A DNA stretch of 64,000 nt from an uncultured Oscillospiraceae bacterium (GTDB lineage Bacteria; Bacillota; Clostridia; Oscillospirales; Acutalibacteraceae): NCBI GenBank assembly GCA_949289045.1, contig CASEMN010000004.1:124001-188000 (forward strand). The letters run 5' to 3'. This document shows, one piece after another, positions 4,554-35,485 of this stretch. Within the stretch, counting starts at the first letter, position 1; each line of letters starts with the position of its first letter. The notes beneath the pieces are model-generated. The model worked only from the letters and a program-made list of their open reading frames with translations, made no database searches and was not told the origin of the DNA. A program made the translations under genes and the position numbers.

Positions 4554-4692
4554 TTAAATAGCTGCTTTATGGATATTTTATATATTTTATCATATATGAT
4601 TTTCTTTTACCATAGGACTAAGATTTTATTAAACGAATATACAAATATAAGATGTGCATTTTGTAGAATTTTGACGTCTTCTATTGTGCAAG

Positions 4693-4720
4693 TTGACATT
4701 TTTTAGTTTTGTGATATACT
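4693..4720 (+). promoter_or_regulatory. SigA promoter of the ricin-lectin gene
   Basis: TTGACA (4693-4698), 16-bp spacer, TATACT (4715-4720) preceded by TG for an extended -10. A TTGTGCAA motif lies directly upstream (4685-4692). Confidence 0.85.
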
Positions 4721-4764
4721 TAATATTGCGGTATGTAAAATAAGTTCATATAAGGAGAATTATT

Positions 4765-26239: not shown

Positions 26240-29200
26240 TTATACTGCACCGCCTATTGAGAGCTTTATTTCATGGCGTTTTCCGTCAAGGGGAATTACC
26301 GCTTCACGGGGATTTCCAGCTTCTTTTACAGCTTCAATTTCAATCTGTGTCGTTTCGCAGACCATTCTTATTTTATATCCCTCACCGTTTCCGAAAACAT
26401 TGGGTTTTACGACGATTTTATTTTTTACACGCTTAATCCCCAAAAATTCCAGTGCGGCAGTATAAAGCCATCCTGCGGAACCTGTATAAAGACTCCATCC
26501 TCCTCTGCCCTGCGCCGCCGGATTCGATGAAATATCCCCTGCAAGAAAATAGGGTTCAAGGCGGTAAGCTTCGGCAATTTCGCTTCTCTGGCATCTCGCA
26601 GCAGGATTTATCATCTCAAAAAGGCGATAAGCTCCTCTTATATCCCCCAGTCTTAAAAGAGCCATACAAAGCCAAACTGCACCATGGGTATACTGTCCAC
26701 CGTTCTCTCTTATTCCCTCCGGATAAGCAGCAACATAGCCCGGCTGCTGTCCGTTTCCTGTAAAGGGATTTTCAAAAAGCTTTATTATCTCGTTTTCACT
26801 GTCTGCAAGGATATCCACAGCGTTTTTGACCGCAGATTCTACCCGCTCACCATTTGGCATACCCGAAAATACCGCAAAGGACTGTGGGAGGGAATCAATC
26901 ATACATTCTCCTGTGCCCGTACCCATAGAGTCTCCGTTATCATAAAATGCACGAAGATACCATTTTCCGTTCCAGCAGTGCTCATCCACAGCTTTTTTAA
27001 GTTTTCCCGCTTCTTCTGAAAGAATCTGACAAACTTTTTCATCCCCCAGTTCAAAGGCAACAGGTATAAACTTTTCCATAACCATTGCCGCAAACATGGA
27101 AAGCCACACGCTTTCGCCCTTGCCGCCTGTTCCCACACGGTTATATCCGTCATTCCAGTCGCCGTTTCCTATTAAAATAAGCTCATGGGAACCGAGCTTT
27201 AAAGCCCTTTCAATTGCTCTGAGACAGTGCCCGTAAACGGTGCCTTTTTCGTTTGAAACTTCAGCTCTTATATACCTTTCGTTTTCTCCCTCTTTAAGTT
27301 CTTCACTGCATAGAAATGCTATCTTCTTTTCCAAAAATGAAGTATCTCCTGTTGCCTCAAAGTATTTTGCCGCAGCGTAGGGAAGCCACAGCAAATCATC
27401 CGAGCACCTTGTGCGGACTCCCCTTGTGCCTCCTGAATTTTGAGGCAGTCTGTGCCACCAGTGGAGTACATCCCCCTCCTGAAACTGAACGGCACAGCAG
27501 CGGTATATCTGACGGAGAGTTATTTGAGGTTTAGTTAAAAGCAAGGCAAGGGAATCCTGAAGCTGATCACGGAATCCCCATGCACCGGAGCACTGATAAA
27601 ATCCCGTTCTGCCCATTAATCGGCAGTTTGAAATCTGCATGGGAAGCCATGTGTTTACCATTACGTCAAAAGCTTTATCCCCTGTGCCAACAGAGAGAAA
27701 ACCCTCTCCGCTTTCACCGGTAATATCGGCAGTGGTTATTGTTTCGGCGCTCTTTTCTTCTGCTCCGCAGGACAAAATAAACTTTACTTTATCCTCTCTT
27801 CCCGGAGGCAAAATGAGTTTCTTACCCACAGCTCCGCAGGGGTCTGTGGACACTTTTTGCACGTCCCTTAAACTTAAATCAAAGAATTCATTTCGGTTTC
27901 CCGCAAGACAGATGCTGTCCTTTCCGGCGGTGAGATATGCCGTCGTTCTGATACATTCATTTAATGGATTTCTGAAAAAAAGTCCGTCTTTCCCTTTCTC
28001 GAATTTTACGGCACTTTTAAAATCAGCAGTTCTGCCCATGGAAGGTTCGATATAATAATAAATTTCTCCGCTGAATTCATCACTGCCTGTGTTTTCACAG
28101 AACACCTTAACATATTTTGCAAAGCCTCTGGGTGCCACAGACACTTCCACGGCAAATTTTACGTTTTTATATTTTGACATATACACTGCTTTTTTCGGCA
28201 TATACCGCACACAGGATTCTCTCATAATATCATACATTTTTCCGTCCGCTTTAAGAAAAAGCTTTTCACCGCTGAAATCCCCCAAAGGATTATTGCACCA
28301 TGAAGTAAGCTTATTTTCCCCGGCATTGACTGCCCAGGTAAAACCGAGAGAAGTGTTTGTAACAAGTGTTCCGAAAGACGGATTCGCAAGACAGAGACTC
28401 CATGGGACAACAGGCTTTCCTGTTACGGTAAATGAGTTTTCACAAAAATATCCGTTCTTCACCTCCAGCTCCTTTTCATCTTCAAAGGGTACCCTTTCAA
28501 GGGATGGAAGCAAAGAGGATGCAAAAGATTTCTGCGGTCTGCCGATACGTTCTGCACTGCGTTTCGGAACAATAAATTTTGCCGCTCTTTTAAGGAGATT
28601 CAGAACCTCTGTCGGAGTTTTTTCTCCGTCAATAAGACGCACTCCTCCGCGGCAGGAAAGAATATTTTCAAACCCTGCGTCACGGATGAATTTTTCCGTC
28701 CTTTGAAGAGTTTCGCCCTTTCTGCCTATACATACGGCTGCTATTTCCACGAACAGTGAACAGGTGTAAAGGCTTTTGCAGATTTTAAGGTAAGGAAGAA
28801 GTCTCTCTTCATCGGAGCCATAAAGCTCAATATAAATAATCGGATAATCTCCCGAAATACCAGTCTGCCACATTTCACTGCGCTTTAATGTGTTTTCCTG
28901 TGCCGCCTGTTCATATTCTTTTGAATATCCTGCATTCCAGAGAAGATGGGGAAGCACCTGCAAAGCCAGAACTCCTTCGATACTGCCTGAAACAAAAGGC
29001 GACGCCGCTCCTTTTTCACGGGATACATTTTCTTTTCGCAGTGCGGTAAAAAATCTTTTTGCCTCCTGCTCCTCTTCTGCAGCACACATTGCAGCTTTAA
29101 TCGTAACTTTTCCGTGGGATGGCACCTCCACAGGTACGCTCATGGCACAGCAAACGTCGCCTATGGCGCAGGAAGAGGTGAATTTTTCAGGATCCGGCGG

Positions 29201-32200
29201 AAGTGATTTATTGCCAAGAGGTCTTTTCAGCACCTTTTCCCTTGAAGTTTCAAAGGAAAATTTTTCCTGTCCCAAAAGGCCGGCGGCAAGGTAGAGGAGC
29301 TGTCCGCTTTCACGGCTGCGTTTTCTGAAAACAAGCACACCTGAATCCTCACGATAATGAGCTGTAGTAAAGAGCTTTGCAAAGGCCGGATGAGAACGCA
29401 CCTCACTGTGAGGAGCCAATACAGGTTCAAAGTAAATTACCACTTCACCTTTAAGCTTATGCCTGCCGGAATTTTTCACCGTATAGCTTCTTATTTCTCC
29501 CGGTATCAATTTGTGCACATAGGTTTCCGCTGTAAGCTCCGTTTCACCTTTAACGGAGACAAACTTTGCATAGGTGCTGCTGAATTCACCGGAAAAGCTC
29601 TGAGGATTTTCATATCCGGGAGCATATGTGAAGCTCTGAGCACTGTCTCCCTGACAGAAAAAGGCGAGTACTCCAGACGGTGCATTTCGTAAATCTTCAC
29701 TTCTCATTGTAACATCGGCACCGGTATATAATGAAAAACCGTTTCCGCAAGAGGTTACAACGCTCGTCCAGTCTCCGTTTGTATAAAGAGCTACATCGGG
29801 GCTGTCGGGATTCGGCTCAGAGAAAAATCCCGTAGCTTCGTGAATGGTATCGGGCTTTACGGGAGGATTATCCTTTTGGACGTCCTCAAAAACAGTGGAT
29901 GCATCGGAAATCTTTTCTTCAAGGAGCGATTTTGCACTTTCCATTTTTTCATCCTCCATAAATCTTTTCTGCATTATGCCGTCAAAAAGAGCATTTGCAC
30001 AGCTTAAAATACTCATTCCCACATGATGCGCCATAAAGCTTCGCACCACTGCCATACCTCTTGAATCTGTTCTCGAGAGAGTGAAATCCACTGCCTCATA
30101 AAATCCACAGCTGCCGCAAAGCCCCAGTTCTTCAAGTTTTAGTAGGTTTTCCATTGCTCCCTGTGTATCAAAGGGAAGAACCAAAAATGTGGAGTAAGGT
30201 GATATAACAGTTTCTTTATCGGTGCTTCGCTTAAGGGCAAGATTTTCCGCTCCGTGGGCTTTGTACTGATAATTGAGTCCGCTGTCAAAAGCGTAATATC
30301 CGCTTTCGCTCATGCCAAAGGGAACCCCGGCCTTTTCAGCCTGCTTTTTCTGCATTTTAAGACAGAACCCCAGCGCCTCTTCAATAAGCGAATTGCGGTA
30401 CACAGGCAAAAGTATATGGGGCATATAATATTCAAACATTGTGCCAGTCCAGGAAACGGGGCCGGAATATCTGCCGCACCTGAGCGCCGTTCTGTTTAAA
30501 GCTCCCCAGTGCTTTTCGGGAGCCTGACCTGTGGCTACGGCAAAATAGCTGGTCATTCTCGCTTCACTCATAAGCAGATCATAACAGGAAGGTGTCAAAG
30601 CGTTATCCTCAATACTGAAACCGATATGAAAAAGATTTTTCCTTTCATTATATAAAAAGGACAAATCCGTTTCGTCTATTATTTTCTGGAGCCGCTCTGC
30701 AAGTTCTCCGAGAGGCTGGAGCTCACCTTTAAGCTTTAAAAGTCCTGATTTAAGGGAAGTGATACAGCAGAGAAAATTTCCGCTGTCAACGCTTGAAACA
30801 TATACCGGTTCAATAGGCTCTAAAGTCTGGGTGCTGTACCAGTTAAATAAATTCCCCCTGTATTTCGGAAGCTTTTCTACGCTGTCAAGGATATTTTTTA
30901 ATCTTTTGTAAAGTCCCTCGCTGTCAATAAAGCCCATATCCTTTGCCGCAAGGAGACTTAGCATCATCATGCCTATATTGGTGGGAGAAGTCCTCCTTGC
31001 AACGGCAAATACAGGCGAGTGCTGTACGTTATCGGGAGGAAGAAAATGCTCGCTTTCTCCTGCATATTTTTCATAATACTTCCACATTGCCGCACAGTAG
31101 GAAATAATCTTTTCCCTTTCACGGGGAGTGAGTTCCTTTTTAGAGGTTTTAACTTTTCTTTCGGAAATCGGTTCATAAATAACGGGAGCAAGAAAGAAAA
31201 ACAAACCGGCAAGCTTACCGATAATCCCCGGCGTTAAAAGAAGAATCAAAGCAAAAATGAGAGAGGGCAAAAATCTTTTTATGCTTTTTGCACCGTTTTT
31301 TTCGCTGTCCGCAGCAGTTACCCACTGCAAAAGATGACGTCTTGATACAAAGGTTCTCCAAAGGGCTTTTACGGCTGCATCTGCGGCAACAAATGCGTTT
31401 TGCGGAATAAGGATACAGGAAACCAAAGCACGCATTAAACCCATACGGATTTCCGAAGACCCTACGGAGCATCTTTTATGGGTAAAAACAGAAAAGCCTT
31501 TTTTCCACACTGCCTGAATCGCAGAAAAAATTTCTCCGGAACATACGGAAAGAAAAGCTGCCGCAATAAGCAAGGCTCCCAAAAGAGGAGAAAAAAAGCC
31601 GGCAGCAAAAATCAGAACAGAGGCAAAAAGAGGAATAAGGCTTCTTCTGAGATTATCGAAGAGCTTATATTTTGAAAGTGCATTAAGGGGATTTTTATAC
31701 CTTTCCCCTTTAAGAAACGTGTTTTTAAAAATCCAGATAATATTCTGCCAGTCGCCTCTTATCCACCTGTGGCTGCGGCTTAAATATGACTGCACTGTTG
31801 CGGGAAAAGAGTCCGTCACCCACGCACCAGGTACGAGGGCTGCACGAAGAAATCCCCCTTCCAAAATATCGTGGCTGAGGACCTGCTCTTTGGGAAAGGC
31901 TTTCGGCATAAGCTGATAAAAAGCGTCTGCATCAATAAGCCCTTTACCTGAAAAAATCCCCTCTCCGAACATGTTCATATAAAATTCCCATGTACCGGCA
32001 TCATAGGATGAAACTCCCGCCGCTCCTGCCATAACAAGAGAAAAACGGCTTTTTTCAGCCGACGAAAGCTCCGCAGCGGCACTGGGTACAAAAATACCGT
32101 AGCCTTTTTCCACTTTTCCACCGGAAATCTCACATTTATTTAAAGGATGCATTGCCGCTCCCACAAGCCTCAAAAGAGTATTCATGGGCATTTTTGTATC

Positions 32201-33493
32201 GGCATCGAGCATCATAAGATATTTTGTATTCTGAAGATTTTCCGTATCTCCGAACAGCCTAAGCTCCTCTGGCTTTTCTCCCCTCATTGCCTTTATAAGA
32301 GCTTCAACGGCTCCCCTTTTACGCTCTTTTCCGCAAAAACAGTCCTCGCTGGGAGAATATTCTCTCCGGCGCACTGCAAGAAAAAATCCTCCCCCGTATT
32401 TTTTGTTAAGAGCTTCTATAACTCTTTTGCATCCCTTTAAAATCGCCTCATCCTCTGGCATTTCCTCATGGTCACTGCTTCTGTAATCTCCGAGGACACA
32501 AAAGCTCACATCGCCTTTTCCGTTGCTTATTTTCATCTCTCTGAGGTTTTTATAAAGGTCTCTTCTCCCCTTTTCGTCAGAGGGCATCAAAACAGAAACT
32601 GCCGCAACGGTTTTTCCCTCCTTTGGTACAGCGTCTATTTCAAGGGAGGGAAGCGTTCTTTTTCGGGAAAACCTTCCGTAAATATTCCACACTATGTTTT
32701 TAATGACTTCCCATAAAGGGAAAAATAAACACAGACCAACAAATAAGTTCCTTGTAAAATATCCGGCTAAAACAGAAATGATGACTGACAAAACAGGTGG
32801 ACACACGAGGGCAAAAATACCCCATGAAAAATTTTGATCCTGGGGCACAATGTACTTACCTATGTGTTCCTCGTGTTTCTTAGCTTGACTTATAGCTTTT
32901 ACTGCAAATTCAGTTTCCGAAACTCCGCTTTTTTTGCTCTGCTCCCCTATCCATTTGCGGTACAACGCTTTTGTTTCTCCTGTACACTGTGAATAAACTC
33001 CTGCCGGGTCACGGAGAAGAATTTTCTCCGTTTCGCATATATGGCACATTATTTCTTCAAAATCAATTTCTTCGAGGCTTCTTAAACCCTTTATATAATC
33101 CGCCGCTGCTTCACTTTCGTTGGACATTGAAAAAAGCACAATATACGCACACTCTGCCATGAGCCTTACAAGAGTACATTCATCAGCGGAAAAGCCCTTA
33201 TCGGAAAGTTCTGCAATAAAGTTTTCCTGAGAAAGGCAGCCGTACTTTTCCACACTTTTTTCAATTTCTGTGTAAATAATGGGCACGCCGTTTTTACAGG
33301 GCAGCTTTGGCGCATTTTTTAAATTTTCTATGCACTCCTTTCCCATTGTTGCAAGGATATAATAGTTATCCGTAAGCAGACCGTAATTTTTATTTTTAAT
33401 CTTCTGAATACAGTTTGTCCTTATATCTTTTAAAGCAGATCTTACTGCTTTTTCTATTCTTTTCGGTTTTTCAAAATTTGCTTTAACACTCAT
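26240..33493 (-). CDS. Giant membrane glucan synthase/phosphorylase, GT84-GH94 (cyclic beta-1,2-glucan synthase-like)
   Basis: 2417 residues. The N-terminal third has membrane helices (about 225-265 and several between 605 and 780) around a glycosyltransferase domain with LMMLDADTKMP (about 431) and WIRGDWQN (about 577). A glycoamylase-like domain follows (MSESGYYAFD about 1062; YSTFLVLPFDTQG). The C-terminal half holds two beta-sandwich regions and an (alpha/alpha)6 GH94 phosphorylase-like domain with HWWHRLPQNSGGTRGVRTRC and the catalytic Asp in GNGDWNDG (about 2111). This is the order of NdvB-type enzymes, which polymerise, cyclise and trim beta-1,2-glucan from UDP-glucose. It is shorter than the proteobacterial enzymes (about 2800). 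Monocistronic. The exact product is inferred from family. Confidence 0.9.
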   Translation of the reverse strand: MSVKANFEKPKRIEKAVRSALKDIRTNCIQKIKNKNYGLLTDNYYILATMGKECIENLKNAPKLPCKNGVPIIYTEIEKSVEKYGCLSQENFIAELSDKGFSADECTLVRLMAECAYIVLFSMSNESEAAADYIKGLRSLEEIDFEEIMCHICETEKILLRDPAGVYSQCTGETKALYRKWIGEQSKKSGVSETEFAVKAISQAKKHEEHIGKYIVPQDQNFSWGIFALVCPPVLSVIISVLAGYFTRNLFVGLCLFFPLWEVIKNIVWNIYGRFSRKRTLPSLEIDAVPKEGKTVAAVSVLMPSDEKGRRDLYKNLREMKISNGKGDVSFCVLGDYRSSDHEEMPEDEAILKGCKRVIEALNKKYGGGFFLAVRRREYSPSEDCFCGKERKRGAVEALIKAMRGEKPEELRLFGDTENLQNTKYLMMLDADTKMPMNTLLRLVGAAMHPLNKCEISGGKVEKGYGIFVPSAAAELSSAEKSRFSLVMAGAAGVSSYDAGTWEFYMNMFGEGIFSGKGLIDADAFYQLMPKAFPKEQVLSHDILEGGFLRAALVPGAWVTDSFPATVQSYLSRSHRWIRGDWQNIIWIFKNTFLKGERYKNPLNALSKYKLFDNLRRSLIPLFASVLIFAAGFFSPLLGALLIAAAFLSVCSGEIFSAIQAVWKKGFSVFTHKRCSVGSSEIRMGLMRALVSCILIPQNAFVAADAAVKALWRTFVSRRHLLQWVTAADSEKNGAKSIKRFLPSLIFALILLLTPGIIGKLAGLFFFLAPVIYEPISERKVKTSKKELTPREREKIISYCAAMWKYYEKYAGESEHFLPPDNVQHSPVFAVARRTSPTNIGMMMLSLLAAKDMGFIDSEGLYKRLKNILDSVEKLPKYRGNLFNWYSTQTLEPIEPVYVSSVDSGNFLCCITSLKSGLLKLKGELQPLGELAERLQKIIDETDLSFLYNERKNLFHIGFSIEDNALTPSCYDLLMSEARMTSYFAVATGQAPEKHWGALNRTALRCGRYSGPVSWTGTMFEYYMPHILLPVYRNSLIEEALGFCLKMQKKQAEKAGVPFGMSESGYYAFDSGLNYQYKAHGAENLALKRSTDKETVISPYSTFLVLPFDTQGAMENLLKLEELGLCGSCGFYEAVDFTLSRTDSRGMAVVRSFMAHHVGMSILSCANALFDGIMQKRFMEDEKMESAKSLLEEKISDASTVFEDVQKDNPPVKPDTIHEATGFFSEPNPDSPDVALYTNGDWTSVVTSCGNGFSLYTGADVTMRSEDLRNAPSGVLAFFCQGDSAQSFTYAPGYENPQSFSGEFSSTYAKFVSVKGETELTAETYVHKLIPGEIRSYTVKNSGRHKLKGEVVIYFEPVLAPHSEVRSHPAFAKLFTTAHYREDSGVLVFRKRSRESGQLLYLAAGLLGQEKFSFETSREKVLKRPLGNKSLPPDPEKFTSSCAIGDVCCAMSVPVEVPSHGKVTIKAAMCAAEEEQEAKRFFTALRKENVSREKGAASPFVSGSIEGVLALQVLPHLLWNAGYSKEYEQAAQENTLKRSEMWQTGISGDYPIIYIELYGSDEERLLPYLKICKSLYTCSLFVEIAAVCIGRKGETLQRTEKFIRDAGFENILSCRGGVRLIDGEKTPTEVLNLLKRAAKFIVPKRSAERIGRPQKSFASSLLPSLERVPFEDEKELEVKNGYFCENSFTVTGKPVVPWSLCLANPSFGTLVTNTSLGFTWAVNAGENKLTSWCNNPLGDFSGEKLFLKADGKMYDIMRESCVRYMPKKAVYMSKYKNVKFAVEVSVAPRGFAKYVKVFCENTGSDEFSGEIYYYIEPSMGRTADFKSAVKFEKGKDGLFFRNPLNECIRTTAYLTAGKDSICLAGNRNEFFDLSLRDVQKVSTDPCGAVGKKLILPPGREDKVKFILSCGAEEKSAETITTADITGESGEGFLSVGTGDKAFDVMVNTWLPMQISNCRLMGRTGFYQCSGAWGFRDQLQDSLALLLTKPQITLRQIYRCCAVQFQEGDVLHWWHRLPQNSGGTRGVRTRCSDDLLWLPYAAAKYFEATGDTSFLEKKIAFLCSEELKEGENERYIRAEVSNEKGTVYGHCLRAIERALKLGSHELILIGNGDWNDGYNRVGTGGKGESVWLSMFAAMVMEKFIPVAFELGDEKVCQILSEEAGKLKKAVDEHCWNGKWYLRAFYDNGDSMGTGTGECMIDSLPQSFAVFSGMPNGERVESAVKNAVDILADSENEIIKLFENPFTGNGQQPGYVAAYPEGIRENGGQYTHGAVWLCMALLRLGDIRGAYRLFEMINPAARCQRSEIAEAYRLEPYFLAGDISSNPAAQGRGGWSLYTGSAGWLYTAALEFLGIKRVKNKIVVKPNVFGNGEGYKIRMVCETTQIEIEAVKEAGNPREAVIPLDGKRHEIKLSIGGAV

Positions 33494-34710: not shown

Positions 34711-34740
34711 CAAAAAAATAAGAGCCTTTATTCAAGGCTC
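34711..34740 (-). terminator. Terminator of the 41-codon gene transcript
   Basis: GAGCCTT (34722-34728) pairs with AAGGCTC (34734-34740). On the minus strand TTATTTTTTT follows, a strong termination signal. Confidence 0.85.
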
Positions 34741-34820
34741 CCCCGATTTTTACTTCTTTGATACGCCCTTGCAGCTTTTGCTGCAATGACAAATCGGTGA
34801 CCGGCTAAGCCGAATCAGCT
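34741..34820 (-). ncRNA. Structured RNA segment downstream of the 41-codon gene
   Basis: About 80 bases lie between the stop of the small gene and its terminator. CCGATTT (34743-34749) can pair with AAATCGG (34791-34797), enclosing a perfect hairpin TTGCAGC/GCTGCAA (34769-34786). A further hairpin CGGC-TAA-GCCG lies at 34802-34812. It could be a structured 3' untranslated region, a processed small RNA, or a repeated intergenic element; nothing in the sequence decides between these. Confidence 0.5.
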
Positions 34821-34821
34821 C

Positions 34822-34947
34822 TTATTTTCCGACTACTCCGTTAAGTGCGATAGCTGTAAGGAAAGATTTCCAACTAAGCTTTTTCTCGCTGAGGAATTCG
34901 TCGAGAAGCTCTCTTTCGAACTCGTAATTCTTGAATGTCATATTCAT
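34822..34947 (-). CDS. 41-residue small protein of unknown function
   Basis: The minus-strand frame runs from ATG (34945-34947) to TAA (34822-34824) and encodes 41 residues beginning MNMTFKNYEFERELLDEF and ending FLTAIALNGVVGK. It has a good ribosome site (GAAAGGAG 8 bases upstream), a promoter with 17-bp spacing, a dyad operator and a strong terminator, which together argue that it is expressed. The N-terminal half is acidic and amphipathic; the C-terminal half is more hydrophobic with a conserved-looking Trp. It is too short to be a membrane anchor with confidence. I do not recognise a family. Regulatory peptide, small-protein partner or bacteriocin-like precursor are all open. Confidence 0.7.
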   Translation of the reverse strand: MNMTFKNYEFERELLDEFLSEKKLSWKSFLTAIALNGVVGK

Positions 34948-34976
34948 CTTCACTCCTTTCGTTCTTTGTTGTGCTT

Positions 34977-35045
34977 ATACTACCACATATTATGCAAAAC
35001 GTCAAGACTTTTTGCATAACAGATTGTCTATTTAGTTGTGCAAAA
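34977..35045 (-). promoter_or_regulatory. Promoter and dyad operator of the 41-codon gene
   Basis: Minus strand TTGACG (35000-35005), 17-bp spacer, TAGTAT (34977-34982). A perfect dyad flanks the -35: TTATGCAAAA (34990-34999) and TTTTGCATAA (35010-35019). A third copy of the half-site, TTGTGCAAAA, lies at 35036-35045. A dimeric regulator bound here would cover the -35, which suggests repression or tight activation. Confidence 0.75.
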
Positions 35046-35261
35046 TGACGAAAGATGCAGTGGAAAATCACGTATGACAGATTACCTCAAGAGTAAAAAA
35101 GCGTTAATGTTTTTTGTAGTAATTGCACAAATCACTCGTTTTTGTTCATAAATCAGTAATTTTTTTAAAATCAATTCTGCCTTTTTCGACAACTGACAGT
35201 TTAAAAAGTTTGTTAAGTTTATATCACGTTTTTCCCGTTTTAAGCATAAAATAAGCCCCAA
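35046..35261. other. AT-rich spacer without a recognised gene
   Basis: Part of the 364-base gene-free stretch 34948-35311. Its left end holds the operator described above and its right end a terminator. Between them the DNA is AT-rich, with no open frame preceded by a ribosome site and no strong hairpin. Confidence 0.5.
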
Positions 35262-35311: not shown

Positions 35312-35485
35312 TTAGTTTTGCTTTTTTACAATATCGTATTCGCCGTTATAAGGTCTAAAATAGCGGCATTTATCTCCACCTGAATACATAAAGCGTGCAT
35401 ATTCGTCTTCATCAAGCTCAAGAGAACAGTAGTATTCGTCGTTTTCAGAATCGTATTCATTATACCAGCAGTTTTCGCATTCCAT
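35312..35485 (-). CDS. Small cysteine protein, DUF6472-like
   Basis: 57 residues from the ATG at 35485, which has GGGGGA upstream; an open frame extends 31 residues further but without a ribosome site. It begins MECENCWYNEYD and carries four Cys (ECENC, YYCSL, DKCRYF), many Asp, Glu and Tyr, and ends YDIVKKQN. The spacing of Cys suggests a small metal-binding fold. I recall this pattern as DUF6472, a short Clostridia family of unknown function; a search would confirm. Confidence 0.7.
   Translation of the reverse strand: MECENCWYNEYDSENDEYYCSLELDEDEYARFMYSGGDKCRYFRPYNGEYDIVKKQN

Follow-up and report, generated by a model that had tools for sequence, protein, structure and literature searches.

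A microprotein gene of Oscillospiraceae-type gut Clostridia and a candidate operator found also before YabE-like wall-enzyme genes

Two-helix hairpins are common, and in Bacillus they include Sda and the Spo0E-like proteins, helical-hairpin regulators of about 40-85 residues that have a controlled promoter and act by protein binding. Bacillus also has the WalRK regulon, which counts yocH among its members and controls wall enzymes with 3D domains; WalR sites are direct repeats of the form TGTWAH-N5-TGTWAH. Among dual-function RNAs, VcdRP of Vibrio encodes a protein of 29 aa (PMC8672173). YabE and SpsB have been described as stationary-phase survival proteins, and the YabE-type proteins have been proposed as the firmicute counterpart of the actinobacterial resuscitation-promoting factors (PMC1084345). 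The gene described here brings to light a family of proteins so short that routine annotation passes them over, carried by many uncultured gut Clostridia. Two testable motifs come with it, one a regulatory site in common with the YabE/Sps wall enzymes, the other an RNA element that goes with the microprotein.

The microprotein gene and its family

The window, that is, the whole 64,000-nucleotide stretch of DNA that was analysed, holds an open reading frame of 41 codons (34822..34947, minus strand) that runs from an ATG at 34947 to a TAA stop at 34822-34824. The ribosome binding site AAAGGAG (34953..34959, minus strand), read from the sequence, lies 5 nt upstream of this ATG and is retained in a genome of the same genus (G001) and in the microprotein family. 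An initial annotation had claimed a minus-strand gene at this position, complete with ribosome site and other expression signals, and in these respects it was borne out. Its start codon probably needs correcting; because G001 carries ACG in place of the ATG at 34947, the true start is probably the ATG at 34941, which would give a protein of 39 aa. The G001 orthologue, found from the window sequence alone (73% identity, E 1.8e-15), has an intact frame, and most codon differences between the two copies are synonymous, with pS 0.77 (17.5/22.8 synonymous sites) against pN 0.12 (11.5/94 non-synonymous sites). For 101 pairs of close relatives within the family, the pooled values are pS 0.55 and pN 0.15. 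Intact frames and synonymous variation in relatives had been named in advance as marks of a real gene; both were observed, the former in G001 and in at least 73 loci. These sequence comparisons establish the frame as a genuine monocistronic gene under selection, whose expression is predicted. No copy was found in G002, the third genome of the genus and a MAG.

The window and G001 share the gene order HD-domain gene, microprotein gene, DUF6472 gene and GH30 gene. The adjoining HD-domain gene lies on the plus strand and is convergent, and the DUF6472 small protein is encoded at 35315-35485 (minus strand). Across the family, no conserved neighbourhood of the microprotein gene was found. Elsewhere in the window, a 2417-residue protein resembling GH94 cyclic glucan synthases is encoded at 26240-33493 (minus strand).

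Several weak matches in other genera proved to be short frames sharing the promoter layout. A profile built from nine microprotein sequences recovered members, at E 2e-4 or better, in 26 of the 250 genomes searched from the window's family. The promoter pattern TGCACAA-N16-TTGTGCA-N6-CTTGA, scanned over 84,980 species genomes, returned 90 stretches, 80 of which were fetched; a family member is clearly encoded just downstream in 73 of these 80, a count for which starts and ribosome sites were picked mechanically and then inspected by eye. The two independent routes thus agree, the profile leading to members with the promoter and the promoter pattern leading to members. Nearly all of these loci belong to MAGs that bear the label Oscillospiraceae, Ruminococcaceae or Clostridia, with herbivore guts as the source of many, and the genomes behind the family as a whole are likewise mostly MAGs. 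The 90 distinct peptides gathered (34-55 aa) put the size of the family at no fewer than 90 members. The commonest residues across them read E..L[IL]xEI.x.EKxF[ST][WF]KK[LF]xK[IA][IL]ELxAL. The window protein has the core LxxEI..K.[FL][ST][WF]KK[LF]..xIEL in a frame of the 34-55 aa range, and scores E 7e-20 with profile A2 and 2e-12 with profile A4, its own sequence being part of both alignments. Copy number is usually one per genome, with two copies in G011 and tandem pairs in G323, L210 and L228; tandem copies lie at 3561-3900 in L210, 4653-5130 in L228 and 1853-2220 in L144. In a profile search of an order-wide sample, only weak matches within long frames, none of them convincing, were obtained outside the window's family.

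That the protein has no recognised family, as first suggested, holds for Pfam, NCBIfam, PHROG, PADLOC and the PDB, all of which lack a match. No family recurred convincingly when 47 or 70 members were scanned singly against Pfam, NCBIfam, PHROG and PADLOC; a profile search of the PDB gave a best E of 0.31; and neither the family nor the operator motif was found in the literature. In Rfam, the locus and its relatives gave nothing above the gathering score except tRNA and 5S. A phage-borne gene is not indicated, the promoter/operator pattern having 0 exact matches among IMG/VR viral contigs. On sequence evidence the microprotein is thus a member of an undescribed, unnamed family of about 40 residues in Oscillospiraceae-type gut Clostridia.

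AlphaFold models of 70 members place helices at residues 5-20 and 26-40 in a helical hairpin (pLDDT 87.8, pTM 0.60), and a fold search of the PDB with the hairpin model gave nothing significant, with no match at E below 6. By eye, neither a signal peptide nor a membrane helix is evident. Net charge is 0 for the window protein and averages +1.4 over the family. As modelled, the microprotein is a soluble protein predicted to fold as a helical hairpin.

Promoter, operators and the YabE-like genes

Upstream of the gene lies a SigA-type promoter, TTGACG-17-TAGTAT, with a TG before the -10 that makes it an extended -10 promoter (34977..35005, minus strand). It aligns with 34 homologous promoters whose consensus is TTGACA/TATAAT. 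A search by consensus only found 2 promoters where 1.6 were expected in shuffled sequence, which is not above chance; since consensus matches are no commoner than in shuffled sequence, the case for the promoter rests on conservation. The 17-bp-spaced promoter of the initial annotation is present, its significance coming from that conservation and not from consensus alone. The dyad operator proposed with it fared only in part. An inverted repeat, TTATGCAAAA..TTTTGCATAA, does exist around the -35 (34990..35019, minus strand), with 14-nt arms that are 93% complementary, but it is not the main conserved operator, as it is kept only partly in G001 and is absent from other genera. The left half of this dyad doubles as an arm of another operator, one whose conservation extends across genera. 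At two loci of two other genera (L039 and L045), argG promoters carry TGCAAAAA..CTTGA..TTTTGCATAAT, a sequence that resembles the window's dyad and may be overlapped by an ArgR-type box.

With their -35 boxes in register, the 34 promoters share TT.GTCATWTTGCACAAA..(N14)..TTTGTGCAAAATGNCTTGACA, and at many loci the left element is a full 17-bp palindrome, TTGTGCA-N3-TGCACAA. An operator matrix derived solely from 24 YabE sites was run over 74 microprotein promoters. Counted from the first T of the -35, its peaks fall at -39 (z 7.5), -6 (z 5.1) and -116/-117 (z 2.7). In the window, these correspond to three minus-strand operators, whose distances from the transcription start are estimated from the -35 box, as is the -63 given below. 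The middle operator, TTCGTCATTTTGCACAA (35036..35052), is centred at about -74; it is the strongest matrix peak and is evident in the alignment. The proximal operator, TTATGCAAAAAGTCTTG (35003..35019), abuts and overlaps the -35 with its centre at about -41, and the window's version is a weaker copy. The distal operator, TTGTGCAATTACTACAA (35114..35130), is centred at about -151, and in the window lies at -117 from the -35 box. Combined with a good -35 box, the -74 pattern is essentially specific to microprotein genes. The main conserved operator is therefore the 17-bp palindrome at three fixed places (about -41, -74 and -151). The arms resemble relaxed DnaA boxes (TTWTNCACA), but their position 5 is nearly always G and together they make up a palindrome of 17 bp, so this assignment is not favoured.

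Elsewhere in these genomes, TTGTGCA-N3-TGCACAA leads to YabE-like genes. The palindrome stands 18 nt before TTTGACA in 48 of 150 family genomes, against 5 with a reversed control, and about 25 of 30 palindrome loci checked encode secreted proteins of the DUF348/G5/3D or 3D-only type. At YabE promoters, the matrix site lies at -28 from the -35 box (about -63). The window genome's own DUF348-G5-3D gene, on another contig, is preceded by TTGTGCAATATAGACAA-N18-TTTGACA. By these sequence matches, then, the same bacteria set the candidate regulatory site of the microprotein before genes for YabE/Sps-type secreted wall enzymes. Because the microprotein occurs in only about a tenth of the family's genomes and the yabE site is commoner, the microprotein is best seen as an accessory part.

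Several further sites were recorded. No regulator gene lies directly beside yabE in G000 or G017, and in G004 a response regulator and a kinase are encoded about 1.4 kb downstream of yabE. At locus L272 (genome G089), an exact palindrome stands 28 nt before the TTTGACA of a prepilin-peptidase-like gene, possibly a further regulon member with its site about one helical turn further out. Within the window, a promoter with TTGTGCAAGTTGACA (4684-4725, plus strand) precedes a lysine-rich, ricin-like repeat protein (from 4766), with half an operator beside the -35 at a different spacing. In G078 (L274, L276, L277), an intergenic element, AAAACCGGGGTTTTT..TTGTGCAA.GTGAACAAATGTTCGATA, is repeated near several genes and carries an operator-like palindrome.

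The 3' end of the transcript and rival readings

Downstream of the stop codon is a structured 3'UTR (34743..34821, minus strand) with the hairpin TTGCAGC-AAAA-GCTGCAA at 34769-34786, followed by an intrinsic terminator, GGGAGCC..GGCTCTTATTTTTTT (34712..34742, minus strand), a stem-loop with the T-run initially annotated. The terminator is identical in G001 and the 3'UTR nearly so, with paired changes in the G001 hairpin; fold z, terminator included, is -4.4 for the window and -3.0 for G001. In about half of the members (43 of 75 3'UTRs), a hairpin is followed by UUUACAUAUA, with TTNCATATA-like motifs. These hairpins end at a TT[AC]CATATA-like sequence on stems that differ widely among members, and the hairpin score at the motif register reaches z 12.5 over shuffles and drops on either side. 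A strict descriptor of the element found 34 instances in the 3'UTRs of microprotein genes but only 3 elsewhere in 1.17 Mb, one of which follows the second gene of a tandem pair. The hairpin-UUUACAUAUA tail is absent from the window and G001 3'UTRs, so that, with 43 of 75 carrying it, the element does not define the whole family.

Such an element could mean that the transcript is a dual-function RNA, yielding both the microprotein and a regulatory 3'UTR RNA that binds a protein or pairs with mRNAs. The recurrence of the motif on many different stems, sometimes with C-rich loops, and its near confinement to microprotein transcripts are consistent with this. Against it stand the missing tail in the window gene and its sibling, the clear protein-level selection on the ORF, and pairing of the 3'UTR to yabE leaders that is not above shuffles in most genomes (mean z about -0.9, with z below -2 in only two genomes); we consider the dual-function reading unlikely. 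The element might instead only set mRNA stability, processing or termination, leaving the protein as the sole functional product. That it follows each ORF even in tandem copies, as in L228, and so travels with the ORF agrees with such a role, although an element of this kind would be expected on other mRNAs too, where almost none was seen; this account is doubtful, if a little less so.

The remaining readings concern the frame itself. A short ORF, a structured region and a terminator would also suit a leader peptide or an attenuator acting on a gene downstream, but the adjoining HD-domain gene is convergent, downstream genes differ in relatives, and the sequence contains no run of one regulatory codon, which leaves this reading scarcely credible. 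Hardly better is a type I toxin or secreted signalling peptide, which we hold to be very improbable: small size and an own promoter and terminator would fit, whereas charged amphipathic helices lacking a membrane segment or signal sequence would not, and an operator in common with yabE would not be expected. As for a chance ORF beneath a real non-coding RNA gene, the high conservation of the 3'UTR and promoter between the window species and G001 could be cited for it; the excess of pS (0.77) over pN (0.12), the frames intact in 73 loci or more and the residues conserved across genera exclude it for practical purposes.

A proposed role and its relation to known systems

We infer a dimeric regulator, the sign of its control and a protein target for the microprotein as follows. 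The regulator would switch the microprotein and the YabE/Sps wall-enzyme genes together, presumably during wall remodelling or on the resumption of growth. Activation is slightly favoured over repression because spacings of 33, 22 and 11 bp put the centres at -41, -63 and -74 close to a single face of the helix, as for activators; core promoters near consensus and a proximal site overlapping the -35 would also suit a repressor. The microprotein itself would stay cytoplasmic, where its conserved LxxEI..K.F[ST]WKKLxKxIEL face would bind a protein; the likeliest purpose would be feedback on the signalling step by which the wall enzyme is controlled. On this view it may regulate by binding protein inside the cell, as part of a cell-wall regulon, and the RNA that encodes it may have a dual function. 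Taken whole, the reading of a real hairpin gene of about 40 residues with a YabE/Sps-shared operator, a dimeric regulator and feedback by protein binding seems to us evenly balanced between right and wrong. Counting against it are the unconserved neighbourhood, the lack of a regulator gene next to yabE in G000 and G017, the small share of genomes that carry the microprotein, and a hairpin fold that is common and drew no match in the fold search. Its extension, in which a dual-function transcript of hairpin microprotein and small structured RNA supplies the feedback in a cell-wall regulon not yet described from Oscillospiraceae-type gut Clostridia, is speculative and rather improbable. To our knowledge, little is known of how the firmicute counterparts of the resuscitation-promoting factors are controlled, and a precise operator at fixed positions could serve directly as bait for the regulator.

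The microprotein resembles Sda and the Spo0E-like proteins in being a small predicted helical hairpin from a single gene with a controlled promoter, and would resemble them further if it binds a protein, but it has no sequence match in the Pfam and PDB searches. A sporulation link through Spo0A is not supported, as Spo0A is present in 26 of 30 carriers and 28 of 30 non-carriers, and is thus neither required nor enriched and is absent from some carriers. Membership among the type I toxins is likewise at odds with the charged amphipathic sequence and the hairpin model, those toxins being membrane-spanning hydrophobic peptides paired with an antisense RNA. In combining a short ORF with a conserved RNA element on the same small transcript, the gene resembles VcdRP and other dual-function RNAs; VcdRP differs in its Vibrio host, 29-aa protein and control, and the RNA role is only a candidate for the microprotein transcript. 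As in the WalRK regulon, 3D-domain wall enzymes appear to be under control, although the sites here are inverted repeats, TTGTGCA-N3-TGCACAA, and do not match the direct repeats of WalR. Finally, while YabE and SpsB are secreted wall enzymes of 400 residues that are not homologous to the microprotein, their genes have the 17-bp candidate operator in common with it.
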